From positions 124,001-188,000 of the forward strand of contig CAADGV010000024.1 in NCBI GenBank assembly GCA_900696645.1: a stretch of DNA of 64,000 nucleotides. Direction: 5' to 3'. The notes under the pieces were generated by a model. The model made no database searches, was not told where the DNA came from, and saw only the letters and a program-made list of their open reading frames with translations. This stretch comes from an uncultured Chlorobiota bacterium. GTDB taxonomy: Bacteria; Bacteroidota; Ignavibacteria; UBA10030; UBA6906. Shown here in pieces: positions 44,513 through 58,589 of this stretch. Within the stretch, counting starts at the first letter, position 1. Each line of letters begins with the position of its first letter. The position numbers and the translations under genes were made by a program.

Positions 44513-45163
44513 ATGAAACTTGACAGTTTTCTTCACGCACTTCTTCCGAAGGACGACAAGTTCTTCAGATATTTTGAGAAGGATGTTCAGAATCTCCACC
44601 AGGCGGCAAAGATGTTCAGCGAACTGATGTCGAACTCAATGTCCAAAGAGGAACGCGCACAAAAGATCCGCCGCATCGAAGAGTTCGAGCACAAAGGAGA
44701 TGAGATAACACATCAGATTTTTTCCGAACTCGGATCAACGTTCATCACGCCATTCGACAGGGAAGATATCCATGCCCTTACCTCAAAACTGGATGATATT
44801 CTCGATTACATACAAGGGGCGGCAAACCGGATTGTGTTGTACCGTGTTGATATCATTCTGCCGGAAATGGAGCGACTCGCCAGTTTGATCTATCAGGCTG
44901 TGCAAGAACTGAGCATGGCCATCCACCATCTGCGTGATTTTCAGAACGAACCGAGTATTCGCGAAAATCTTGTGAAGATCCACAGTATTGAAAATGAGGC
45001 GGACGATCTATTCGAGCGAGCAATCGCTAACCTATTTGATACCTGCAAGGATCCGATCCTTCTCATCAAAAACAAAGAGTTGATCGTCAGTTTGGAAACG
45101 GCAACGGACAAGTGCGAGGATGCCGCAAACGCCATTGAATCCATTATAGTCAAGAACTCCTGA
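44513..45163 (+). CDS. DUF47/PhoU-like regulator of phosphate transporter
   Basis: A 216-residue all-helical protein of the DUF47 family (YkaA/PhoU-like). These are usually encoded directly before a PiT transporter and thought to control it. Family features are a leading LPKDDKFFRYFEKDV, then EEFEHKGDEITHQIFSELG, FITPFDREDIHALTSKLDDI, IENEADDLFERAIANLF and a C-terminal ETATDKCEDAANAIESI with the metal-binding ExxxD/DxxxE pattern. The PiT gene starts immediately after, one base downstream of its stop. Confidence 0.92.
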   Translation: MKLDSFLHALLPKDDKFFRYFEKDVQNLHQAAKMFSELMSNSMSKEERAQKIRRIEEFEHKGDEITHQIFSELGSTFITPFDREDIHALTSKLDDILDYIQGAANRIVLYRVDIILPEMERLASLIYQAVQELSMAIHHLRDFQNEPSIRENLVKIHSIENEADDLFERAIANLFDTCKDPILLIKNKELIVSLETATDKCEDAANAIESIIVKNS

Positions 45164-45164
45164 T

Positions 45165-46166
45165 ATGCTGACACTCGTCATTATCATCATCGGGTTGGCG
45201 TTACTGTTCGATTTCCTGAACGGCATGAACGATGCCGCCAACTCCATTGCGACAATTGTTTCGACGCATGTTCTTTCTCCGCGCCTTGCGGTATTGTGGG
45301 CGGCATTCTTCAATGTGGTGGCCGCATTCGGGTTCGGTGTGCATGTTGCCAATACAATCGGCAAGGGGATTGTGGAACTTTCCGTTGTCAACGAGTATTT
45401 GATTCTCGGTGCCTTGATTGGCGCCATTGTGTGGACGCACGTATGTACTCGTTTCGGACTGCCCATCAGTGTGTCACATGCACTAATCGGAGGATTGGCC
45501 GGTGCAGGTCTTGCAAAAGGAGGCATTGGGGCACTCGTGATGGGAGGACTAATCAAGGTGTCGTTGTTCATTTTCCTTTCACCGCTTCTCGGACTTATCA
45601 TTGCATACTTCTTCATGGTTGGCGTAACGTGGCTGTCCCGGAAATCATCCCCGCACAAGGTAGACCGGGTGTTTCGCGTTGGCCAGTTGATATCGTCCGC
45701 TGCGTACAGTCTTGGTCACGGCACGAACGATGCACAAAAGACCATGGGCATCATTGCTCTCGTTCTATACACTTCAGGTTACCTTGGCAATGAGTTTTAT
45801 GTGCCTGTATGGGTCATCCTCTCTGCTCATGCTGCAATTGGGCTTGGCACGTATATGGGAGGGTGGAAAGTTGTCCGCACGATGGGCATGAAACTGACAC
45901 ATCTCAGGCCCATTGGCGGGTTTTGTGCTGAAACTGCAGGTGCATCGGTCCTTCTGGGAACTGCGTTGGCTGGGATTCCTGTGAGTACGACACATACGAT
46001 AGCCGGCGCGATTATGGGTGTTGGATCTACAAGACGCTTGTCTGCTGTGCGATGGGGGATTGCGGGAAAAATAGTCTGGGCGTGGATTCTTACCATTCCG
46101 GCATCTGCAACAGTTGCTGCCGGCGGATATTTAGTTGTTGAGGCGATTCATCAACTGCTCAGTTAG
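45165..46166 (+). CDS. PiT family inorganic phosphate transporter
   Basis: A 333-residue inner-membrane phosphate/cation symporter with about ten helices in two inverted halves. The PiT signature repeats are FDFLNGMNDAANSIATIVST near the N-terminus and SLGHGTNDAQKTMGIIALVL in the second half, each containing the conserved GxNDA core. Length is that of the short bacterial PiT form. The ATG follows the DUF47 stop by one base, so the pair is certainly cotranscribed. Energy coupling (proton or sodium) cannot be told. Confidence 0.94.
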   Translation: MLTLVIIIIGLALLFDFLNGMNDAANSIATIVSTHVLSPRLAVLWAAFFNVVAAFGFGVHVANTIGKGIVELSVVNEYLILGALIGAIVWTHVCTRFGLPISVSHALIGGLAGAGLAKGGIGALVMGGLIKVSLFIFLSPLLGLIIAYFFMVGVTWLSRKSSPHKVDRVFRVGQLISSAAYSLGHGTNDAQKTMGIIALVLYTSGYLGNEFYVPVWVILSAHAAIGLGTYMGGWKVVRTMGMKLTHLRPIGGFCAETAGASVLLGTALAGIPVSTTHTIAGAIMGVGSTRRLSAVRWGIAGKIVWAWILTIPASATVAAGGYLVVEAIHQLLS

Positions 46167-46623: not shown

Positions 46624-46652
46624 TTGACTAACGACTCCCCCCGAAGTATATT
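46624..46652 (+). promoter_or_regulatory. Promoter for the first GH8 gene
   Basis: TTGACT (46624-46629), 17-base spacer, TATATT (46647-46652). The predicted start near 46659 leaves about 100 bases of leader before the ATG at 46760. The second GH8 gene has a closely similar promoter (TTGACA-N17-TATATT, 48621-48649). Confidence 0.6.
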
Positions 46653-46759: not shown

Positions 46760-48547
46760 ATGCGTGCAACGGTAATTTGTATCGCTTTATGGAGTGCTAC
46801 GGCTCTGGTGCCGGAGATGTTAGGCGGACTGAAGGACAATCTCACCGGAGGAACCTCTGTGGATACTCTGGGCAGCGGATGCTTGAATTTTCCGTTCCCT
46901 CAAAACACCACCTTTCCGTTCGGTATCATGCCGAACGGCAGCGATCATGCTGTGGCCCATCAATCTTACCTCGCATGGAAGAACAACTACGTAACAACCG
47001 ATGGGGCCTGCGGTTTCCGCAGGGTAGTGTTCAACGACATGCATACAACTTACTCCGAGGGAATAGGATACGGGATGCTGCTTGCTGTAAATGCCGGGGA
47101 TCGGGAATTGTTTGATGATCTGTTCGGATACTACAACAATTTCCTCGATCATAACGGACTAATGCACTGGTGGATTGGCAGCAACTGTCAGGTTATCGGG
47201 ATTACGGCGGCAACCGATGCGGATCAAGATGTGGCGTTTGCACTGCTCCAAGCTCACCAGCAATGGTGCAGCGAAGGGGCAATAAATTATCTGCTGAGCG
47301 CACAAACCATCATCGATCGGCTGTACGCCTACACTGTTGAAGCAGGCACGTATGTTCTCAAGCCGGGAGATAATTGGGGGGGCTCGCATGTGACGAATCC
47401 TTCGTATTTTGCTCCGGCATACTACAGGGCATTTCGTGAGGCCACCGGCAATGCAGGCTGGGATTCGGTTATCACCAAATGCTACGAGATTCTGAGCAAC
47501 GCAGCGCATCACACAACAGGTTTGGTACCCGATTGGTGCCAGGCAAATGGTCAACCGGCAAACGGCTTTGCGTATTACTACTACTACGATGCAACACGAA
47601 CACCGTGGCGGATTGCACTTGATTACCTCTGGTATGGAGATCAACGAGCCTACGACTTTTGCACAAAGATCTCCGATTTTGTACGAGGGATTGGCGCCCC
47701 GAATATACTTGAAGGATATCATCTCAACGGAAGCCCGCTCAACTGGTCGCACATAAATGTGTTTATCGGTCCGTTCGGTGCGGGCGTAATGGCTACGAAT
47801 CAAAGTTACCAGTCGTTTTGTGATTCAATGTACAACGAGAACGTAACTACTGTCCCATGGTTCATTCCCGGCAATTATTACAACTACAGTCTAAGAACGC
47901 TAACGCTGTTTTTACAGACCGGAAATTTTCTCAACCCGAACGAAATGCCGTTGCCGGTACAGCTCGCATATTTCAGAGGGCGCGTTACTCTGCCCGGTAA
48001 CCACGCATTGCTTGAATGGGGAACACTCTCAGAGCTGAACAACTATGGATTTGAGATTCAAAAAAGGCTTCAGTCGGACCCGGCGTTTGCAACGCTACCC
48101 AATAGTTTCATCCCGGGTCACGGGACGACGCTTGAGCCTCAATTTTATTCATTCATGGATTCTGAAGCCATAAATCGCCCGACATATTACAGGTTGAAAC
48201 AAATCGATCTTGACGGGAGAGTTCATTTCACCGATGCAATATTCGTTGAGGCCTCAACATCGGTGTATGAAGAATCCGTCCCGCCGGCTTTTTCACTTCA
48301 TCAGAACTATCCAAATCCTTTCAATCCATCGACACGGATTCGGTTTGCCATTCCGAAAGACGCCAACGTTAAGGTGAGTGTTTACAACTCCCTCGGGCAA
48401 CTCGTGGCTCACCTTATTAATGAAGAGAAGCATCGCGGGTATCACGAAGTCGTATTCCACGCAGATGGGTTGTCGAGCGGTGTATACTATTACACTCTTA
48501 GAGCCGATGGCTTCGTAGCATCCAGGAAACTCATTCTCATCAAATAG
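46760..48547 (+). CDS. Glycoside hydrolase family 8 enzyme with type IX secretion sorting domain
   Basis: A 595-residue exported hydrolase. A short hydrophobic N-terminus (ICIALWSATALVPEML) serves as signal peptide. The GH8 (alpha/alpha)6 domain spans about 38-395. The catalytic acid Glu is in TTYSEGIGYGMLLAV, an aspartate in ATDADQDVAFALL, and the third acidic block is YYYYDATRTPWRIALDYLW. GH8 enzymes are endo-beta-1,4-glucanases, chitosanases or xylanases. Residues about 397-505 are a T9SS-associated beta domain (LLEWGTLSELNNYGFEIQK). The C-terminus (FSLHQNYPNPFNPSTRIRFA to RKLILIK) is a type A sorting domain. It is one of three GH8 paralogues here. Confidence 0.93.
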   Translation: MRATVICIALWSATALVPEMLGGLKDNLTGGTSVDTLGSGCLNFPFPQNTTFPFGIMPNGSDHAVAHQSYLAWKNNYVTTDGACGFRRVVFNDMHTTYSEGIGYGMLLAVNAGDRELFDDLFGYYNNFLDHNGLMHWWIGSNCQVIGITAATDADQDVAFALLQAHQQWCSEGAINYLLSAQTIIDRLYAYTVEAGTYVLKPGDNWGGSHVTNPSYFAPAYYRAFREATGNAGWDSVITKCYEILSNAAHHTTGLVPDWCQANGQPANGFAYYYYYDATRTPWRIALDYLWYGDQRAYDFCTKISDFVRGIGAPNILEGYHLNGSPLNWSHINVFIGPFGAGVMATNQSYQSFCDSMYNENVTTVPWFIPGNYYNYSLRTLTLFLQTGNFLNPNEMPLPVQLAYFRGRVTLPGNHALLEWGTLSELNNYGFEIQKRLQSDPAFATLPNSFIPGHGTTLEPQFYSFMDSEAINRPTYYRLKQIDLDGRVHFTDAIFVEASTSVYEESVPPAFSLHQNYPNPFNPSTRIRFAIPKDANVKVSVYNSLGQLVAHLINEEKHRGYHEVVFHADGLSSGVYYYTLRADGFVASRKLILIK

Positions 48548-48620
48548 TCTTCCGAACTCTGGTTTGTAAGACGAAATCGTCACAATCTGCTGCCCTCCCC
48601 GCATAATTCTTGGCAGTTCT

Positions 48621-48649
48621 TGACAACCCTCCTATCTACGTGTATATTT
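48621..48649 (+). promoter_or_regulatory. Promoter for the second GH8 gene
   Basis: TTGACA (48621-48626), 17-base spacer, TATATT (48644-48649): near-perfect sigma-70 match. The start near 48656 leaves about 60 bases before the GTG at 48718. The second GH8 gene is therefore a separate transcription unit from the first. Confidence 0.65.
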
Positions 48650-48717
48650 TAGCGCGAGACAAACCTGTATTTACAAACACACATCATTCCTTTCGCAAAA
48701 AGTAGAATAGGGGGAGC

Positions 48718-51327
48718 GTGAACCTGCTTCGATTTGTAGAGAGAATCATTCTTCTTACCGTTATAGGTGTCGGGTCGTTATGGGCACAGCAATCCGGCAT
48801 TTCCGACACGCCGGAATGCCACAACTATCCGTTCCCGCAAAATGCCATCTATCCGTATGGTCTAATGCCGGCGGATCGTAATCACCTTCACGCTCAACAA
48901 TCATATCTTAGCTGGAAGAACAACTATGTCACAGCCGACGGAGCATGCGGATTTCGGCGGGTGCTGTTCAACGACATGAGTTCGACCTATTCTGAGGGTA
49001 TTGGGTACGGAATGTTGCTCGCCGCCAACTTTGATGATCAATTACTATTCGATGATCTTTGGCGTTACTATGTTGCCAATCTTGATCAATACGGATTGAT
49101 GCACTGGTGGATTGGCAACAACTGCCAGGTGTTGGGCATCAATGCCGCAACCGATGCCGACGAGGATGTTGCATTTGCGCTTTTGCTTGCAGACAAGCAG
49201 TGGTGCAGCACCGGCCCTCTCAACTACAGGCAACTCGCAATCACACAAATCAATCGCATCTATCAACGCCAAGTTGAACGCAACACGTATGTGCTGAAGC
49301 CCGGCGATACGTGGGGAGGTTCGAACGTGACAAATCCTTCGTACTTTGCTCCCGCATACTACCGCGCATTTCGCGAAGCAACAGGGAACGCGGCGTGGGA
49401 TTCGGTGATTACGAAATGTTATCAGATTCTGAACAACGCCGCACACCCGACAACCGGACTGGTGCCCGACTGGTGTCAGGCGAATGGTCTGCCTGCAAGC
49501 GGTTTTGCCTATTATTACTACTACGACGCAACAAGAACCCCGTGGCGGATTGCACTGGATTATTTGTGGTTCGGTGATCAGAGGGCAAAGGCATTTTGCG
49601 AAAAAATCTCCTCATTTGCCCGCAACATCGGGTCCATCAATATCGGTGAGGGATACCAGTTAGATGGAAGTCCTATGGGATCGGCGCATATCAATGTGTT
49701 TGTCGGTCCGTTCGGGGCCGGTGCAATGGGAACGGGTTCGACATTTCAGGCTTTCTGTGACTCGGCCTATCAGGACAATGTTGCGACTGTGCCGCCGTTC
49801 GTGAATGGCAACTACTACAACTACAGTCTGCGAACCCTCACGCTTTTTCTTCAGACGGGGAATTTCTTCAACCCGTTGGCGGACCCGGTTCAGATACCGG
49901 CAACCCCGTCATTGGTAAGTCCGCTCAACGGTTCAACTGCTAACCCAACTTCTCCTGTACTGACGTGGCATGTGGCCGCCCGGGCGACGAGCTACAGAAT
50001 ACAGGTTGCGGAAGATTCAATGTTCACGTCAATAGTGCTGGATGATTCGACTCTTGTTGATACAATCCGGGTTGTTCCGGGATTGTCGAATGCATCCGTG
50101 TACTATTGGCGCGTTAGGGCAAAGAATCATGTTGGATGGAGTGAATTTGGGGCCTCGTGGAAGTTCACAACAATCCCTCTGCCGCCGGGTACTCCAGCAT
50201 TGAACTTACCCGCCAACGGAGCAACAGGAGTAACGACATCCCCTATTCTTTCATGGGACAGCTCGCTGACGGCAACGTGGTACCGCGTTCAAGTTTCAAG
50301 CGATTCGTTGTTCTCAAGTCTTGTCGTTGATGACTCCACGGTCTCAGCAACCTTCTTGCACATCGGGCCACTGGAGTATCTGACAACATACTATTGGCGT
50401 GCAAGCGCCCGCAACGAAGGGGGCTCGAGTTCGTTCTCGGAGGCATGGCGTTTCACGACTACGCTCTCACCGCCTTCACTCATACTGCCGCCCGACAGTG
50501 CCGCAGGAGTCTCGACAAATCCTCTGCTATCATGGGCTTCAGTGCCGGGCGCGCTTCTGTATCATGTGCAGGTTTCGCTGGACTCGTCATTCAGTGCGGT
50601 AGTTTTTGATAGTGTGGTGGTCGGCGAAACAGAATGTTATGCAGTCGGACTTGAGAATTCACTCAAATATTTCTGGAGAGTGAGAGCAAGCAACACGGAA
50701 GCTGTTGGAGTTTGGTCGGATGTATGGAAATTCACAACGATCCCTCGTTTGCCGGACCAGGTCGTGCTTGTCGCTCCGCCGAATGCAGCGATTATAACAT
50801 CCGACAGTGTGCAATTTCTATGGCGTGCAAGTCAACCGGAAGTTGAATTCTATTGGTTTGAAATAGCAAACGATTCAACGTTTGAAGGATCGAAAATCGA
50901 CTCAACACTGACCGATACAATCCGCGTGACCCGCGGTCTTCTGAATCATTCCTCGTTTTGGTGGAAGGTACGATCGAAAAACGCGGCTGGGTGGGGAGAA
51001 TTCAGCGATGTTCGGAAGTTCAACGTCGTGACCACGGGCTTGAGCACGGCGTATTCCGTTCCGGAGGAGTTCGAGCTTGCGCAGAATTATCCGAACCCGT
51101 TCAACCCTGCAACAACAATCAAGTACGGTTTACCGCGGAACTCGCACGTATTCCTGTTTGTGTTCAATACGCTTGGTCAGGTTGTGGAAGAGATGGTAAA
51201 TGATTATCAGCAAGCGGGTTATCACGAAATCACCTTCCGAAATACTCACCTGGCAAGTGGTGTCTACTACTATCAATTGCGTGCCGAAGGAGTGATTCTG
51301 ACAAAGAAATTCGTTCTGATCAAGTAG
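48718..51327 (+). CDS. GH8 enzyme with four fibronectin-III-like modules and T9SS sorting domain
   Basis: An 869-residue secreted hydrolase. The signal peptide (FVERIILLTVIGVGSLWAQ) is followed by a GH8 domain (about 35-390) with the same catalytic blocks as its paralogue: TYSEGIGYGMLLAAN, ATDADEDVAFALLLAD, YYDATRTPWRIALDYLWFGD. Four FN3-like repeats begin near residues 391, 491, 583 and 677, each carrying a pattern like YYWRVRAKN and ending WKFTTI or similar. The type A sorting domain runs from 780 (FELAQNYPNPFNPATTIKYG) to KKFVLIK. GTG start with AGGGGGA ribosome site 4-10 bases upstream. The FN3 linkers probably space the enzyme from the cell surface. Confidence 0.93.
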   Translation: MNLLRFVERIILLTVIGVGSLWAQQSGISDTPECHNYPFPQNAIYPYGLMPADRNHLHAQQSYLSWKNNYVTADGACGFRRVLFNDMSSTYSEGIGYGMLLAANFDDQLLFDDLWRYYVANLDQYGLMHWWIGNNCQVLGINAATDADEDVAFALLLADKQWCSTGPLNYRQLAITQINRIYQRQVERNTYVLKPGDTWGGSNVTNPSYFAPAYYRAFREATGNAAWDSVITKCYQILNNAAHPTTGLVPDWCQANGLPASGFAYYYYYDATRTPWRIALDYLWFGDQRAKAFCEKISSFARNIGSINIGEGYQLDGSPMGSAHINVFVGPFGAGAMGTGSTFQAFCDSAYQDNVATVPPFVNGNYYNYSLRTLTLFLQTGNFFNPLADPVQIPATPSLVSPLNGSTANPTSPVLTWHVAARATSYRIQVAEDSMFTSIVLDDSTLVDTIRVVPGLSNASVYYWRVRAKNHVGWSEFGASWKFTTIPLPPGTPALNLPANGATGVTTSPILSWDSSLTATWYRVQVSSDSLFSSLVVDDSTVSATFLHIGPLEYLTTYYWRASARNEGGSSSFSEAWRFTTTLSPPSLILPPDSAAGVSTNPLLSWASVPGALLYHVQVSLDSSFSAVVFDSVVVGETECYAVGLENSLKYFWRVRASNTEAVGVWSDVWKFTTIPRLPDQVVLVAPPNAAIITSDSVQFLWRASQPEVEFYWFEIANDSTFEGSKIDSTLTDTIRVTRGLLNHSSFWWKVRSKNAAGWGEFSDVRKFNVVTTGLSTAYSVPEEFELAQNYPNPFNPATTIKYGLPRNSHVFLFVFNTLGQVVEEMVNDYQQAGYHEITFRNTHLASGVYYYQLRAEGVILTKKFVLIK

Positions 51328-51374
51328 CCGAACAATACCCTTCTCTGTGTACCGGAAACTCTGTGACATGAAAC

Positions 51375-51421
51375 AAATGCCGGGCACTGACTTTTGCACA
51401 CAATACTGCTGTTCGGCATTT
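51375..51421 (+). terminator. Possible terminator or attenuator hairpin
   Basis: AAATGCCG (51375-51382) pairs with CGGCATTT (51414-51421) across a 31-base loop in which GCA/TGC can add internal pairs. Weak T-rich sequence follows. It lies between the second GH8 gene and the GT2 gene. The long loop makes it a less certain terminator. Confidence 0.35.
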
Positions 51422-51450
51422 AATAGTTTCGTACGCACGACAACATCGAG

Positions 51451-52587
51451 ATGACCACGTCAAATACGCCGCTTGTTTCAGTTGTTATTCCAGCCTACAA
51501 CGCAGAGAGATTTATCGGCAAAACTCTTGAATCGATTTTGTTACAGACCTACCCTCACTTCGAAGTTCTTGTTGTTGACGATGGTTCAACCGATGGTACT
51601 GCCGATATAATCAAATCATTTGCCGTTCATGATTCCCGTTTTCAACTTCTCCAAAAAACAAACGGAGGGGTGGCGACAGCACGCAACATGGCGATCCGCA
51701 ACGCATCAGGCGAGTTTATTGCCCCATGCGATTCCGACGACGTATGGTATCCGGACAGATTGAAGGCGCAGGTTGAGTGTATGATGCAGTCGGATGAGTC
51801 TGTCGGACTCGTTTATTGTTGGTCAAAAATCATTGACGAAGATGACCAGCCCATTGTTGACATTACGCACTCTTACGAAGGGAGAGTATTTGCCGATCTT
51901 GTCTATTCAAACTTTCTTGGAAACGGCAGTTGCGCTCTCATCCGGCGGAGTTGTTTTGATGCAGTGGGGGAGTATAACGGTGCTACGACACCGTGTGAGG
52001 AATGGGACTTGTATATCAGGGTTGCCGAACGGTATGAGGTTCGGCTCATTCCGACTATTCTTGTTGGATACAGGGAAGTGCTGACGAGCCTGTCCGCAAA
52101 CCACTACCGGATGGAGGGCGCTTTTGCATCGCTGCTGAGGGAGATTAGAAATCGCCACCCGCAAATTCCGAGTTCGATACTCCGGGTGGCGAAAGGTTCA
52201 TATTATCTGTATCTCACAGGCAAGAGCAATCGTCGCAGCCGGTACGGCACATCGCTCAGGTATTTAGGGGTATGTCTCTTTTCGGATCCATTGCGATTGC
52301 TTTCATCCGAATTCCATTCTACCCTTGCAAAGGCAATCGTCCGGTTTCTTGCTCATCCCGTAACATCCAGGATCTGGAAGGACGATCGCATGTGGCGCAC
52401 GATGAGGCGGAAACTTCATGTGCCTGTTGCAACGCAAGAGAGTAATGAAGCAGAGAAGGAAAAAACGTCCGCCACAGAAACTCCTTTGCGCCTGTTTGAC
52501 CGCTTGCATAACTCACGCATGAAACGATTCAGAGATGAAGCAAATGCCGTTTTGACCGCTGACAGGCAGCAGGCACACGGGAAGTAA
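51451..52587 (+). CDS. Glycosyltransferase family 2
   Basis: A 378-residue GT-A fold inverting transferase. The N-terminus VSVVIPAYNAERFIGKTLES and the block VVDDGSTDGTADII hold the nucleotide-sugar site, with the metal-binding DxD-type motif in FIAPCDSDDVWYPDRL. A C-terminal helical, arginine-rich part (about 250-330) and a charged tail follow. The acceptor is unknown. It begins 124 bases after the second GH8 gene and ends 47 bases before the third, so it is probably cotranscribed with the latter. Its presence inside a set of glucan hydrolases points to a polysaccharide-related role, which is inference. Confidence 0.9.
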   Translation: MTTSNTPLVSVVIPAYNAERFIGKTLESILLQTYPHFEVLVVDDGSTDGTADIIKSFAVHDSRFQLLQKTNGGVATARNMAIRNASGEFIAPCDSDDVWYPDRLKAQVECMMQSDESVGLVYCWSKIIDEDDQPIVDITHSYEGRVFADLVYSNFLGNGSCALIRRSCFDAVGEYNGATTPCEEWDLYIRVAERYEVRLIPTILVGYREVLTSLSANHYRMEGAFASLLREIRNRHPQIPSSILRVAKGSYYLYLTGKSNRRSRYGTSLRYLGVCLFSDPLRLLSSEFHSTLAKAIVRFLAHPVTSRIWKDDRMWRTMRRKLHVPVATQESNEAEKEKTSATETPLRLFDRLHNSRMKRFRDEANAVLTADRQQAHGK

Positions 52588-52634
52588 GAACGGCTCCAAC
52601 GTGCAGAAGAATCCAAATTCCTTTTGATAATCTG

Positions 52635-54806
52635 ATGACATTCAAACGCTTTCCATTTCCGAACTCAAGAATTCAACGGGTAGTCTTCCTCATTGTGTGG
52701 ATGGTGTTCATTTTTGTGAGTTCCACCTACTCTCAATGGATGAGCAGAACGAGCGGAAGTACAGATCCGTTCTCAGCCGTGACAAACGCCGTTGAGGGCC
52801 GTTGGTATGCAGTAGGGGCACGAGGGCTCATCGTCTGCTCGGAAGACGGCGGTGTTACATGGAGCAAGCAATCAAGTGGCACAAACAATTGGCTCAGTTC
52901 GGTCAGTTTCGTTGATGAGAATACTGGTTGGATTGCGGGATGGAATGGAACAATCCTCTCCACCTCCAATGCCGGCGGGAGTTGGCTCAGCCATAAAGGA
53001 GTGATATCAAAATCGCTGTACGGCGTCACCTTCTCTGACAAGAGAAACGGTACAGTAGCAGGTTTTGAGGGAACGATTCTTCGAACCAAGGATGGTGGCG
53101 TAACCTGGGTGGAGCAGTCAAGCGGAACAACGGCAAACCTGCGCGACATATTCTTTTCCGATAGCGTCACGGGTGTTGCCGTCGGATCAGAAGGAACGAT
53201 TCTTCGCACAACCGATGCGGGAGAGACATGGACCCCGCAGTCATCCGGGAAAACGACGCTGCTACACAAAGTTCGTTATGTCAACACGAGCTTTGGAACT
53301 GCGGTCGGCGAAGCGGGGACAATTCTGATCACGACAAACGGGGGAGTTGATTGGCAAGAGCGTTCTGCCAACACTACGTCGGATCTTTGGGATGTGTACT
53401 TTACAGACGAAAAAACCGGCTTCATCGTAGGCTCTAAAGGAACACTGTTGAAGTCGACTGACGGCTGTACTACTTGGGCAAATCAGTCAGCCGGAACGGA
53501 AAGTGACCTACGTGGTGTATCGTTTGCAACTGCTGCGATTGGTGTTGCCGTGGGCGTTCAGGGAACCATCCTCCAGACACTGAACGGAGGGGGTTGCGAG
53601 AATTTTCCGTTTCCTCAGAATCTTTCATACGAATACGGCATTATGCCGCTGCAGCGCAATCACGCGGTTGCTGAAGCATCGTACATAAGTTGGAAAACCA
53701 ACTATGTGACATCGCAGGGTGCATGCGGTTATCGGAGAGTCTTGTTCGACGATATGCGTTCAACAACGTCCGAAGGAATCGGATACGGCATGTTGTTGGC
53801 TGTTACGTTCGGCGATCAGGCACTCTTTGATGATCTGTGGTCGTACTACCAGAGATTCCTGAACAAGAGCGGATTCATGGATTGGCATATTAGTGACAGT
53901 TGCACAATTTTGGGTTACGGCGGCGCAACCGACGCTGACGAAGATGCAGCGTTTGCATTGTTGCTTGCAGACAAGCAGTGGTGCAGCGATGGCAGAATCA
54001 ACTATCGGGAGGATGCGCGTATTCTGATTGAGCGGATTTTCAAGCATCAGGTTGAACCGGAGACGTTTGTTCTCAAGCCGGGAAACGGTGCGTGGGGTGG
54101 ATCGCATCTCCTTAACCCATCGTATTTTGCCCCCGCATATTACCGGGCGTTCGAGGCTGCAACGGGCAATTCAGGTTGGTCGAAGGTCATCGAGAAATGC
54201 TATGAAGTCTTGAGAAACGCTGCCCATCCCCAAACCGGCCTTGTGCCGGACTGGTGCAAGGCAGACGGATCGCCGGGACAAGGACGCGAGAACAATCATT
54301 ACTATTTCTGGGATGCAACAAGAACGCCGTGGCGTATAGCCCTCGATTATCTCTGGTATGGGAACGATGAAGCGCGGCAGTTCTGCTTGAAGATTGCCGG
54401 ATTTGCGCGAACAATCGGCGCAGCAAATATCGCGAACGGGTATTTGCTTGATGGCAAGCCGATGGGGCCGGAGCGCAACAGCATATTTGTCGGCCCGTTC
54501 GGGGCGGTTGCAATGGCAGCGGGCGAAACGTATCAAGCATTGTGTGATTCACTGTATCGCGAGAACGTTCTCCGTGAACCTCCGGCTGCGGGGAATTACT
54601 ACAACTGGAGTCTGCGCACGCTGACCTTGCTTCTCCAAACGGGTAATTTCCGCCCTCCTGACCTGTTCCGACGTCCATTGCGGAGTTGCTTGCTGTGTAA
54701 AAAATTGCTACAATGTCTGTGGCAATACGCCGTTATATATATCTCTCTGCAACAAAAACCTCCGTTCTTTCACACCCTGCATCGGATTGCAGGTACCGAC
54801 CTGTGA
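52635..54806 (+). CDS. Ycf48/BNR-type propeller fused to a GH8 enzyme, no recognisable T9SS tail
   Basis: A 723-residue exported protein. Signal peptide (VVFLIVWMVFIFVSSTYSQ) is followed by about seven repeats of roughly 42 residues (about 45-318) of the Ycf48/BNR type, each with a core like VGSEGTILRTTDAGETW. A GH8 domain follows (about 318-670, with TTSEGIGYGMLLAVT, ATDADEDAAFALLLAD and YYFWDATRTPWRIALDYLWY). All three acidic blocks remain. After LLLQTGNFRPP the last ~50 residues (SCLLCKKLLQCLWQ, ending AGTDL) look like translated non-coding DNA rather than a sorting domain. A promoter-like element lies inside this tail, so the original 3' end has probably been lost. Confidence 0.85.
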   Translation: MTFKRFPFPNSRIQRVVFLIVWMVFIFVSSTYSQWMSRTSGSTDPFSAVTNAVEGRWYAVGARGLIVCSEDGGVTWSKQSSGTNNWLSSVSFVDENTGWIAGWNGTILSTSNAGGSWLSHKGVISKSLYGVTFSDKRNGTVAGFEGTILRTKDGGVTWVEQSSGTTANLRDIFFSDSVTGVAVGSEGTILRTTDAGETWTPQSSGKTTLLHKVRYVNTSFGTAVGEAGTILITTNGGVDWQERSANTTSDLWDVYFTDEKTGFIVGSKGTLLKSTDGCTTWANQSAGTESDLRGVSFATAAIGVAVGVQGTILQTLNGGGCENFPFPQNLSYEYGIMPLQRNHAVAEASYISWKTNYVTSQGACGYRRVLFDDMRSTTSEGIGYGMLLAVTFGDQALFDDLWSYYQRFLNKSGFMDWHISDSCTILGYGGATDADEDAAFALLLADKQWCSDGRINYREDARILIERIFKHQVEPETFVLKPGNGAWGGSHLLNPSYFAPAYYRAFEAATGNSGWSKVIEKCYEVLRNAAHPQTGLVPDWCKADGSPGQGRENNHYYFWDATRTPWRIALDYLWYGNDEARQFCLKIAGFARTIGAANIANGYLLDGKPMGPERNSIFVGPFGAVAMAAGETYQALCDSLYRENVLREPPAAGNYYNWSLRTLTLLLQTGNFRPPDLFRRPLRSCLLCKKLLQCLWQYAVIYISLQQKPPFFHTLHRIAGTDL
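54686..54714 (+). promoter_or_regulatory. Candidate promoter for the etfB-etfA-dehydrogenase unit
   Basis: TTGCTT (54686-54691), 17-base spacer, TACAAT (54709-54714). It lies within the extended open frame at the 3' end of the third GH8 gene and 235 bases before the etfB ATG. No other candidate was seen closer to etfB. Confidence 0.4.
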
Positions 54807-54948: not shown

Positions 54949-55836
54949 ATGTACAACTCGATTGTCCTTGTAAAACAGGTACCGGATACGACTAACATCT
55001 CCGGTCAGGTGATGAAGGAAGACGGAACAGTGAACCGTTCCAAGCTTCCGGCAATCTTCAATTTTGAAGACAGGGTTGCCCTCGAATTCGCCCTTCAAGT
55101 CAAAGACCGGTGCGGCGGCAAAGTAATTGCCGTTACGATGGGCCCGCCCCGAGCATCCGATGTTCTCCGGGAATGCCTGTACATGGGAGCCGACGAAGCG
55201 TATCTCATAACGGACAGGAAGTTCGCCGGAGCCGATACATTGGCAACGTCGTATGTTCTCAGTGAAGCCATCAAGAAGATCGGTAGCGCCGACCTCATCT
55301 TCGCGGGCAGACAAGCCATTGACGGCGACACGGCACAGGTCGGGCCGCAGACAGCCGAGAAACTCGGCATTCCGCAAATCACGTACGTCGAAGAAATTCT
55401 CGACATCAGCGAAAGAACTGTTCGGGTGAAGAAGAAGATTGATGGGGGCTATGAGATTCTGGAAAGCCAGCTTCCCGTTCTGCTTACTGTACTCAAGGAT
55501 GCAGCGGAGCCGCGGCCGTTCAGCGCCAAACGCTTGATGGCATACAAGGGGGCAAAATCACTCCTCGAGTTGGAAAAGCTTGCGGAAGGGAACTCACTGC
55601 TCTACACTGACAAGCTTGTCTACGAATACAAAAACCGCTCTCTCTTCATTCCGACTCTCACAGCGGAAGACCTGCATATTGATGTTGCACGATGCGGCAT
55701 CAAAGGCTCGCCGACAAAGGTGTATGAAGTTGAATCCGTTGTGCTCACCGGGAGCAAGCCGATGCGTTTTGAGAATTCCAAGGCCGGTATGCTGTCGCTT
55801 GTCGATATGTTGATGGAAGATAGAATCCTCGGATGA
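54949..55836 (+). CDS. etfB: Electron transfer flavoprotein beta subunit
   Basis: A 295-residue ETF beta subunit (FixA/EtfB family) that with the alpha subunit carries electrons from acyl-CoA dehydrogenase to the quinone pool. Motifs: VLVKQVPDTTNISGQ at the N-terminus, NFEDRVALEFALQ, ITDRKFAGADTLATSYVLSE, and AGRQAIDGDTAQVGPQTAEK, the AMP/FAD-binding signature of this subunit. Length is a little above the short beta subunits. GAGGAA lies ahead of the ATG. It overlaps etfA (ATGATGA region at 55833-55836). Confidence 0.94.
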   Translation: MYNSIVLVKQVPDTTNISGQVMKEDGTVNRSKLPAIFNFEDRVALEFALQVKDRCGGKVIAVTMGPPRASDVLRECLYMGADEAYLITDRKFAGADTLATSYVLSEAIKKIGSADLIFAGRQAIDGDTAQVGPQTAEKLGIPQITYVEEILDISERTVRVKKKIDGGYEILESQLPVLLTVLKDAAEPRPFSAKRLMAYKGAKSLLELEKLAEGNSLLYTDKLVYEYKNRSLFIPTLTAEDLHIDVARCGIKGSPTKVYEVESVVLTGSKPMRFENSKAGMLSLVDMLMEDRILG

Positions 55837-56861
55837 TGACTATGGAAAACTGCACAAATGACGTTTGGGTGTTTGTCGAGCAACGCGACGGAAAACCCGC
55901 CGAAGTGAGTTTCGAGCTTCTGAGCAAAGGACGCAAACTCGCCGATAGCATGGGAGGGAAGCTGAAGTCGATTGTTCTCGGTGATGATGTGGAAGCAATT
56001 GCCGTTGATTCATTCCGGTTTGGTGCCGACGAAGCATATCTTGTTTCGCATCCCGAACTCGGACGCTACAAAACGCTGCCCTACGCGAGAGTGTTGAATG
56101 AGCTTGTTGGCACACACAATCCGCGCATCGTTCTTTTCGGGGCTACGATCATAGGGAGGGACCTTGCTCCGCGGATTGCCTCGCATACCCGCAGCGGGCT
56201 TACGGCGGATTGTACCGATCTGAGAATTGCCGATGTTACATATCTTGGCAAGGAACACAAAAACCTTCTGCTGCAAATCAGGCCGGCGTTCGGCGGAAAT
56301 ATCATTGCCACCATTATCACTCCCGATACACCGACGCAGATGGCGACTGTCCGTGAAGGAGTAATGGAACTTCACCCGCTTTCGCATCCTCACAAAGTGA
56401 AAATAACCCGCATTCCGTATGAGCCGGACGGATTGGATCACCTCATCACCATTATCGAACAGCATCGAACGGAGAACAAGGTGAACCTGAAGGGCGCCCC
56501 GATTATTGTTGCGGGAGGATACGGGCTTGGAACAAGAGAGAACTTCCGGCTTGTGCATGAGCTTGCGCATACGATCGGCGGCGAGGTTGCAGGCAGCCGT
56601 GCAGCGGTGGATGCCGGTTTCATACCGCATGAACGGCAGGTCGGGCAAACAGGTGTCACGGTCCGCCCGAAACTGTACATCGCAATCGGTATTTCGGGGG
56701 CTATTCAACACAGAGCCGGAATGCAGGAAGCCAAGAAGATCATTGCCATCAATACCGACCCCGATGCACCGATTTTCGATGTATCGCATTACGGCATCGT
56801 CGGGGATGCGACCGATGTTATCCCGAAATTCATTGAAGCATTCAAAAGCAGACTGAAGTGA
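55833..56861 (+). CDS. etfA: Electron transfer flavoprotein alpha subunit
   Basis: A 342-residue ETF alpha subunit (FixB/EtfA family). The N-terminal domain contains DVWVFVEQRDGKPAEVSFEL and VLFGATIIGRDLAPRIASHT. The FAD-binding C-terminal domain has IVAGGYGLGTRENF, GGEVAGSRAAVDAGFIPHER, QVGQTGVTVRPKLYIAIGIS and NTDPDAPIFDVSHYGIVGDA. Full length with all FAD-contact blocks. The start overlaps etfB by four bases; the dehydrogenase gene starts seven bases after its stop. Together they make an electron-transfer operon for fatty acid or amino acid catabolism. Confidence 0.95.
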   Translation: MMTMENCTNDVWVFVEQRDGKPAEVSFELLSKGRKLADSMGGKLKSIVLGDDVEAIAVDSFRFGADEAYLVSHPELGRYKTLPYARVLNELVGTHNPRIVLFGATIIGRDLAPRIASHTRSGLTADCTDLRIADVTYLGKEHKNLLLQIRPAFGGNIIATIITPDTPTQMATVREGVMELHPLSHPHKVKITRIPYEPDGLDHLITIIEQHRTENKVNLKGAPIIVAGGYGLGTRENFRLVHELAHTIGGEVAGSRAAVDAGFIPHERQVGQTGVTVRPKLYIAIGISGAIQHRAGMQEAKKIIAINTDPDAPIFDVSHYGIVGDATDVIPKFIEAFKSRLK

Positions 56862-56867
56862 GTTACA

Positions 56868-58589
56868 ATGCCGAATTATTTCCTTGACAATCCTGACATC
56901 CTTTTTCATTTCAACACGTTTGATCTAAAGGAAGTTGTTGCCATCACGGAAGACGACTACACGCAGTCGAGAGAGTTTTCGTATGCTCCGACGCAGTATG
57001 AAGATGCAATGGGGAACTACAGGAAAGTGCTTGAAGTAGTGGGCGATCTTGCCGGAAACTTCATTGCTCCGAGAGCAGCCGGGGTTGATCATGAGGGAGC
57101 AACATTTGCCAACGGCCGGGTCACATACGCCGAAGGCACGCGCAAGAACCTCCGGCAACTCTCGCAAGCGGATTTGATGGGAATGATTCTTCCCCGCAAG
57201 TACGGCGGATTGAACTTTCCTTTCACCATTTACATGATGACGGTTGAAATGCTTTCACGAGCCGATGCATCGTTGATGAACATCTTCGGATTGCAGGATA
57301 TCGGCGATACGATTCGCAAGTTCGGGAACGAAGGCCAGCGGATGGAATTTCTTCCCAAAATCAGCTCGGGAGAACATACCGGCGCAATGGCGCTGACGGA
57401 GCCGGATGCAGGTTCCGACTTGCAGGCGGTTAAACTTCACGCATATCAGAATGAACAAGGCGCCTGGTTTCTTCGCGGCATGAAGCGTTTCATCACCAAC
57501 GGCAATGCGCAGGTACTGCTTGTTCTTGCCCGTTCGGAACCCGGAACCAAGGACGGCCGGGGCCTGAGCCTGTTCGTGTGCCATCATGACAAAACAGTCA
57601 AGATCCGCCGCATTGAGAACAAGTTAGGCATTCACGGCTCTCCCACATGCGAGTTGCAGTTTAACGACACGCCAGCTCAACTTGTCGGTTCACGACGGTT
57701 CGGACTGATTAAGTACGTGCTGGATCTGATGTACCGGGCGCGCATGGGCGTGTCGGCACAAGCCCTGGGAATTTCACAGGCAGCGTACGAAGAGGCGCTG
57801 AAGTATGCTCGTGAACGCAGACAATTCGGGAAAGCGATTGCCGATATTCCCGTTATCTCCAACATGCTGATTGATATGCGGGTGACGCTGGAAAGTAATC
57901 GTTCGCTGTTCTACAGCACGACACAATGTGTTGATGTAAAGGAGAAGTTGGAAGACAAGATCGAGAAAATGAAAGGAGAAGGGAAGTCCGTCGCCGAGGA
58001 AACCGCAAGGCTCAAACACATCACGAAAGTGGCCAATCTGCTCACGCCCTTGTCGAAATACATGCTCGCTGAATGCAGCAACAGGATAACGTACGACGCG
58101 CTGCAAATTCACGGTGGCACAGGGTACATGAAGGAGTTTCACGTCGAGCAACTTGCCCGCGATGCGCGCATCACGAATATTTATGAAGGGACTTCGCAAC
58201 TGCAGATTGTCGCGGCGTCCGGCGGAGTTATCAATGATGTGTTAGGGGAGATGTTCGAGGCGAAAGAGAAACGCGAGTATAAGGGGGGGCTTACACGGCT
58301 TGCCAACCATCTGAAGGAAATCCGGCGGCTGTTTCTTGACAGCTTGAAGTATGTGGTTGACAAGAAGGACACGGGATTCCAGGATGTTGCTGCGAAAGAT
58401 CTTGTAGAGATGTACGGCTCTCTCTACACCGGCTATCTGTTGCTGGATGAGGCGGAGATTGAGCCGCGCAAGGTGTTCATCGCAAACCGCTACATCGTCA
58501 CCGCGCTGGCGCAGGCACGAAGGAACGCCGAGGCAATCAGGGGAGAGTTGTTCGGAGATTTGCTGCACGCAAGCAAGATTCTGCAATAA
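56868..58589 (+). CDS. Acyl-CoA dehydrogenase family protein
   Basis: A 573-residue flavoenzyme, longer than canonical short-chain acyl-CoA dehydrogenases (about 380) through an N-terminal extension of about 60 residues and a C-terminal helical extension. Core motifs: LPRKYGGLNFPFTIYMMTVE, AMALTEPDAGSDLQAVKLHA, MKRFITNGNAQVLLVLARS, YARERRQFGKAIADIPVISN and DALQIHGGTGYMKEFHVEQL, with ITNIYEGTSQLQIVA at the flavin end. Such longer enzymes paired with etfBA are common in Bacteroidetes/Chlorobi, probably for medium or long acyl chains. The catalytic base cannot be placed by eye. Confidence 0.92.
   Translation: MPNYFLDNPDILFHFNTFDLKEVVAITEDDYTQSREFSYAPTQYEDAMGNYRKVLEVVGDLAGNFIAPRAAGVDHEGATFANGRVTYAEGTRKNLRQLSQADLMGMILPRKYGGLNFPFTIYMMTVEMLSRADASLMNIFGLQDIGDTIRKFGNEGQRMEFLPKISSGEHTGAMALTEPDAGSDLQAVKLHAYQNEQGAWFLRGMKRFITNGNAQVLLVLARSEPGTKDGRGLSLFVCHHDKTVKIRRIENKLGIHGSPTCELQFNDTPAQLVGSRRFGLIKYVLDLMYRARMGVSAQALGISQAAYEEALKYARERRQFGKAIADIPVISNMLIDMRVTLESNRSLFYSTTQCVDVKEKLEDKIEKMKGEGKSVAEETARLKHITKVANLLTPLSKYMLAECSNRITYDALQIHGGTGYMKEFHVEQLARDARITNIYEGTSQLQIVAASGGVINDVLGEMFEAKEKREYKGGLTRLANHLKEIRRLFLDSLKYVVDKKDTGFQDVAAKDLVEMYGSLYTGYLLLDEAEIEPRKVFIANRYIVTALAQARRNAEAIRGELFGDLLHASKILQ

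Follow-up and report, generated by a model that had tools for sequence, protein, structure and literature searches.

How did three genes for enzymes of glycoside hydrolase family 8 (GH8), each with a different set of accessory domains, come to lie within one block, and do their products act on the same polymer? The question is raised by positions 46760-54806 of the window, by which is meant the whole stretch of 64,000 nucleotides that was analysed (positions 124,001 to 188,000 of contig CAADGV010000024.1, from an uncultured Chlorobiota bacterium). The block holds four genes, all on the + strand, which are given here in their order:

46760..48547, + strand: GH8-1, 595 residues; signal peptide, GH8a core, beta domain and type A tail of the type IX secretion system (T9SS); orthologue 87 % identical in the sister species
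48718..51327, + strand: GH8-2, 869 residues from a GTG start; the signal peptide is followed by a GH8a core, four fn3-like repeats and a T9SS tail; orthologue 86 % identical
51451..52587, + strand: family 2 glycosyltransferase (GT2), 378 residues, not a cellulose synthase; PF00535 at E=4e-36; 23 bits to TIGR03030 against a cut-off of 699
52635..54806, + strand: GH8-3, 723 residues as annotated (681 in the sister species); signal peptide, then a Ycf48-like propeller predicted to have seven blades, then the GH8a core; T9SS tail absent

The three architectures, and the GT2 gene between the second and third GH8 genes, had been described in an earlier interpretation of the letters alone (the sequence-only reading), and all of these features were recovered at their coordinates by using Pfam models. 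The genome (4.2 Mb) contains three GH8 genes, all of them in this block. For comparison, the genome under study (G000) was set beside those of a sister species (G001), a third species of the genus (G002) and two members of the same class (G160 and G194). The trio is best explained as local copies of a CelA-type endoglucanase with swapped resident domains, GH8-1 and GH8-2 acting at the surface and GH8-3 in the periplasm on beta-1,4-glucan, an account to which a probability of about 65 % is given.

Local duplication of one catalytic core

A maximum-likelihood tree of 66 rows was built from GH8 sequences of many phyla together with CelA. Tandem duplication had been proposed in the sequence-only reading, and a tree in which the three cores were not each other's closest relatives had been named beforehand as the result that would speak against it. 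The three cores of the window were placed with their three orthologues from the sister species in one clade (support 100/99), and the proposal survived. The next relatives were single-copy GH8 genes of G160 and G194, with a supported split, and a topology in which GH8-3 was forced to these outgroups was rejected by the approximately unbiased (AU) test (p=0.0015). Mutual identity of the cores was 60-72 %, against at most 54 % to the nearest outside sequence. Eight Cys residues occupy identical alignment positions in all three cores; three of these are present in CelA, two in G160 and four in G194. Synteny with the sister species extends over the entire block and takes in GT2, and no other locus with two GH8 genes was found among the matches listed of the relatives. 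On these comparisons it is well supported that the three genes are local copies of one GH8 enzyme.

The catalytic cores were located as follows:

46892..47917, + strand: GH8 catalytic core of GH8-1; PF01270 over residues 45-386, E=7e-71; 1cem at E=2e-91
48829..49854, + strand: GH8 catalytic core of GH8-2; PF01270 over residues 38-379, E=4e-71
53592..54647, + strand: GH8 catalytic core of GH8-3; PF01270, E=1e-66; AlphaFold core with predicted local distance difference test (pLDDT) mostly >90; best PDB match 1cem, template modelling (TM) score 0.92

Glyco_hydro_8 (PF01270) was matched near full length in all three proteins (E 1e-66 to 4e-71). The Glu and Asp blocks, noted as intact from the letters, are so in each core, with equivalents of CelA Glu95, Asp152 and Asp278; Trp132, Trp205, Tyr215, Arg281 and Tyr372 are likewise identical in all three. 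In the alignment, 1kwf carries Gln at the acid position. Subfamily GH8a is marked by Asp at position 278 (PMC5407803), and the three cores are classified by their residues as CelA-like members of this subfamily. Because the equivalents of Glu95 and Asp278 are kept, inverting Glu/Asp catalysis is predicted, in line with the literature (PMC6173055). The nearest solved relative by sequence was CelA (1cem, E about 1e-87 to 2e-91), whereas chitosanases were matched much more weakly (E about 1e-33 to 1e-35); a predicted CelA-type beta-1,4-glucanase is thus much better supported than a chitosanase. The best PDB matches of the GH8-3 core were all GH8 enzymes, 1cem being the first and the Paenibacillus beta-1,3-1,4-glucanase 5xd0 the next. 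An (alpha/alpha)6 barrel was found in the AlphaFold core of GH8-3, to which the other two cores are related at the identities given above. From the near-identical active-site residues it is plausible that all three cores act on the same polymer.

All three cores are under purifying selection: the ratios of nonsynonymous to synonymous divergence (dN/dS) between the two species were 0.05, 0.03 and 0.09 for GH8-1, GH8-2 and GH8-3, respectively, and the accessory parts evolve faster (0.11-0.18).

Accessory domains and predicted location

Outside the cores, the following parts were recognised:

47951..48274, + strand: beta domain of GH8-1 (LPVxLxxF...YRLKQIDxDG), also present in the GH8 proteins of the outgroups G160 and G194; phmmer E=7e-36 and 7e-33 for beta domain plus tail
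48308..48544, + strand: T9SS type A sorting domain of GH8-1; PF18962 (Por_Secre_tail, E=4e-8) and TIGR04183
49906..51042, + strand: four fn3-like repeats of GH8-2; PF00041 passes in three stretches, the fourth being weaker; repeats read directly
51088..51324, + strand: T9SS type A sorting domain of GH8-2; PF18962 (Por_Secre_tail, E=8e-7) and TIGR04183
52734..53588, + strand: Ycf48/PSII_BNR propeller of GH8-3, seven 41-residue Asp-box repeats; PF14870, E=1e-27; 5oj5 and 2xbg, E about 2e-17 to 3e-17; repeat spacing
54678..54803, + strand: 42-residue non-conserved C-terminal extension of GH8-3; TTG here against the stop codon TAG in the sister species

Domain shuffling, the other half of the duplication proposal, is well supported by the outgroups and by resident modules that match the added parts. 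As the outgroup proteins carry both the beta domain and the tail, the GH8-1 form is probably the ancestral architecture, which this gene would have kept. For the fn3 repeats of GH8-2 the best non-orthologous match in the genome was a metalloprotease at G000:C12 (47 %, E 1e-44), and the best match of the GH8-2 tail was the same gene (46 %, E 1e-28), which suggests that a resident fn3-tail module was captured. GH8-2 would accordingly have exchanged the beta domain, and perhaps the tail, for a module of four fn3-like repeats and a type IX tail. Taken alone, the tail fits either origin (ancestral, or acquired with the fn3 repeats), because it is about equally close to the tail of GH8-1 (97 bits) and to that of the metalloprotease (100 bits). 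The module is matched about 150 times per genome in each of the three species of the genus. The Ycf48-like family to which the GH8-3 propeller belongs is resident as well, with 19-52 matched stretches in each of the three genomes of the genus, and GH8-3 would have gained such a propeller between its signal peptide and its catalytic domain and lost its tail. These stretches number 19, 32 and 52 in G000, G001 and G002, the most being in the species that lacks the block.

GH8-3 is the only unusual part of the set, with its propeller fusion and its missing secretion tag. Apart from the orthologue in the sister species, no second propeller-GH8 fusion was found among the matches listed of GH8 open frames. 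The propeller region had a pLDDT <50 in the sole AlphaFold model made, and few related rows were available for it. The absence of a recognisable tail, already remarked upon in the sequence-only reading, was upheld: no match to the type A or type B sorting domain was obtained, and the orthologue in the sister species terminates right after the GH8 domain. A tail concealed in another frame was ruled out by inspection of the frames, none of which held one. The final 42 residues of GH8-3 are read, from the alignment of the two species, as read-through past the stop codon that the sister species has kept. Since the absence of the tail is common to both species and the stop codon was changed at 54678-54680 from TAG to TTG, the present C-terminus would be a small recent change. 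Part of the extension is a helix predicted with moderate confidence and hydrophobic by reading.

Genes for the type IX components SprA and PorU were found above cut-off in the genome, and the tails of GH8-1 and GH8-2 score above the cut-offs of both TIGR04183 and PF18962. Because of these genes and the many tail matches in the genome (the roughly 150 module matches fall mostly on the tail), GH8-1 and GH8-2 are credible type IX cargo. In GH8-3 a Sec-type signal was seen by inspection and the tail is missing; a periplasmic location is therefore most likely. Of the surface and secreted set that the sequence-only reading envisaged, the part concerning GH8-1 and GH8-2 therefore stands, but GH8-3 does not fit it and probably belongs to the periplasm.

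In the mechanism proposed, GH8-1 and GH8-2 would exit by the Sec route and then by the type IX system. At the cell surface they would be either anchored or released, and they would cut beta-1,4-glucan internally through inverting Glu/Asp catalysis; in GH8-2 the fn3 repeats may serve as a spacer or for wall contact. GH8-3 would remain in the periplasm and cleave imported oligosaccharides. An extension of this scheme, in which the propeller functions in binding glucan or a partner and is directly coupled to the periplasmic GH8, and the trio forms a spatial relay built on one duplicated core (surface-anchored GH8-1, fn3-extended GH8-2, periplasmic GH8-3), is put forward as a speculative and rather doubtful idea.

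Neighbourhood and history of the block

On its 5′ side the block is preceded by genes for a TonB-dependent receptor, a PhoU-like protein and a PHO4 transporter and by a tRNA-Asn gene; on its 3′ side it is followed by genes for EtfB, EtfA and an acyl-CoA dehydrogenase, the last two identified by reading. The GT2 gene, predicted to encode a generic glycosyltransferase, is separated from GH8-3 by 47 bp on the same strand, and the two could share a transcript. Two promoter-like sites were recorded:

46624..46652, + strand: sigma70-like promoter before GH8-1, TTGACT-17-TATATT; kept in the sister species
48620..48648, + strand: sigma70-like promoter before GH8-2, TTGACA-17-TATATT; kept in the sister species

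The hexamers of the two sites are near-identical. The consensus scan gave about as many sites of this kind as chance would.

GH8 genes of this type were found in two of the 98 genomes of the order, those of the species under study and its sister. Synonymous divergence (dS) of the GH8 block to the sister species was 0.62-0.82, like that of most of the window (0.4-0.8), and vertical descent since the species split fits for this reason. The possibility that one of the two species recently received the block from the other was considered; no sign of it was seen, the GH8 values lying near the window background. The third species lacks the block, and the genes that it carries downstream of PHO4 and upstream of etfB are different ones, so that this site is regarded as variable. 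In that genome (G002; L185 and L188) type IX cargo genes come after PHO4, and apparent polysaccharide-lyase, transporter and regulator genes lie ahead of etfB (functions by reading). The block may have been gained in the common ancestor of the two species, or it may have been lost repeatedly. The flanks at 44513-46166 (PhoU/PHO4) and 54949-58589 (EtfB/EtfA/acyl-CoA dehydrogenase) showed dS values of 1.0-2.4 to the sister species; it is possible, from these values, that the flanks were replaced in one species.

Alternative explanations and known systems

Several observations weigh against the account of a duplicated, surface and periplasmic beta-1,4-glucanase set. The branching order (3,(1,2)) was favoured at 97/89, but other orders survive the AU test (p=0.063 and 0.132). 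The signal peptide of GH8-1 is short, and its cleavage site is poor-looking in this species (by inspection). A GT2 gene stands inside the cluster. Next to the genes, neither a sugar transporter nor a regulator nor a further cellulase was recognised; the remaining cellulase families were not covered by a search of the whole genome.

The most serious competitor keeps the duplicated set and changes its substrate: another polymer (lichenan or mixed-linkage glucan, xylan or chitosan), or copies that have drifted to different polymers. All of these activities occur in GH8, CelA Tyr369 (+3 subsite) is replaced by Gly in all three cores and Tyr277 by Trp in GH8-3, and the next structural match after CelA is the mixed-linkage enzyme 5xd0. 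Against this stand CelA as by far the closest solved relative, the base at the GH8a Asp position, the much weaker chitosanase matches and the identity of the tested -1/+1 residues in all three cores, and a different substrate is considered rather unlikely. A role in the cell's own polysaccharide, with the GH8 enzymes trimming during export in the manner of BcsZ and GT2 as the biosynthetic partner, would account for the position of the GT2 gene, on the same strand and directly before GH8-3, and BcsZ is itself a periplasmic GH8, as GH8-3 may be. It is nevertheless distinctly less likely than a change of substrate: the BcsZ model scored the trio at 65-71 bits against a cut-off of 299, the best match to cellulose synthase (BcsA) in the genome, at 126 bits, falls short of the cut-off of 699, GH8-1 and GH8-2 bear export tails, and the nearest relative is a CelA-type GH8a enzyme. 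A BcsZ-type role was rejected on the lack of BcsA above cut-off.

The two remaining explanations concern the origin and the fate of the genes. GH8-3 might be a decaying gene that has lost its tail, its stop codon and any function; it has the lowest orthologue identity of the three (83 %), its propeller evolves at a dN/dS of 0.18, and its stop is lost in this species. Decay is nonetheless very improbable, since the gene is open in both species, its catalytic residues are kept under a core dN/dS of 0.09, and the tail is missing in both species, so that the form is stable. Separate acquisition of three genes that became neighbours by chance would suit the differing accessory domains and the patchy occurrence of GH8 in the order, but was refuted with the present sampling by the single clade and the AU test, to which the shared Cys residues are added; its likelihood is close to nil.

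Local duplication of a CelA-type enzyme with exchanged domains thus remains the preferred explanation, and the set is well supported as a paralogue expansion of the ordinary kind, in which a single combination of domains is uncommon. The general view of GH8 and of type IX secretion is unchanged by it. Its value is that of a natural experiment, in which one core is present in three accessory contexts in two fully syntenic species, and the starting architecture is shown by two single-copy outgroups. The effect of fn3 repeats, a type IX tail and a Ycf48-like propeller on an otherwise similar endoglucanase can therefore be tested directly.

Among known systems, Clostridium thermocellum CelA (1cem) is close to the trio in its Glu acid, its Asp base and its key aromatic and charged residues, and the GH8-3 core is about 42 % identical to it in the structure alignment with the TM score of 0.92. 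CelA differs in being cellulosomal, whereas the trio carries type IX tails or a propeller, has Gly for Tyr369 and possesses extra conserved Cys residues. The G160 and G194 proteins, in the sister clade, combine GH8, beta domain and type IX tail as in GH8-1, but occur in one copy without an fn3 or propeller version, have Pro in place of CelA Trp205 and contain another set of Cys residues. From the same phylum, the portions consulted of one account describe several GH8 genes per genome in Cytophaga hutchinsonii and Sporocytophaga, with the neighbours CHU_3440/CHU_3441, an abundant periplasmic MYP_2156, and GH8 proteins that combine Ig-like domains with type IX tails (PMC6247017). These resemble the trio in gene number, in the neighbouring pair, in the tails and in a periplasmic GH8; the proteins are larger, and a Ycf48-like propeller is not mentioned in those portions (PMC6247017). 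Cytophaga and Sporocytophaga relatives fell outside the trio clade in the 66-row tree. With the Ycf48/HCF136 propellers (2xbg, 5oj5), finally, GH8-3 shares the seven Asp-box repeats; there the propeller is a photosystem II assembly factor, whereas in GH8-3 it forms the N-terminal module of a glycoside hydrolase.

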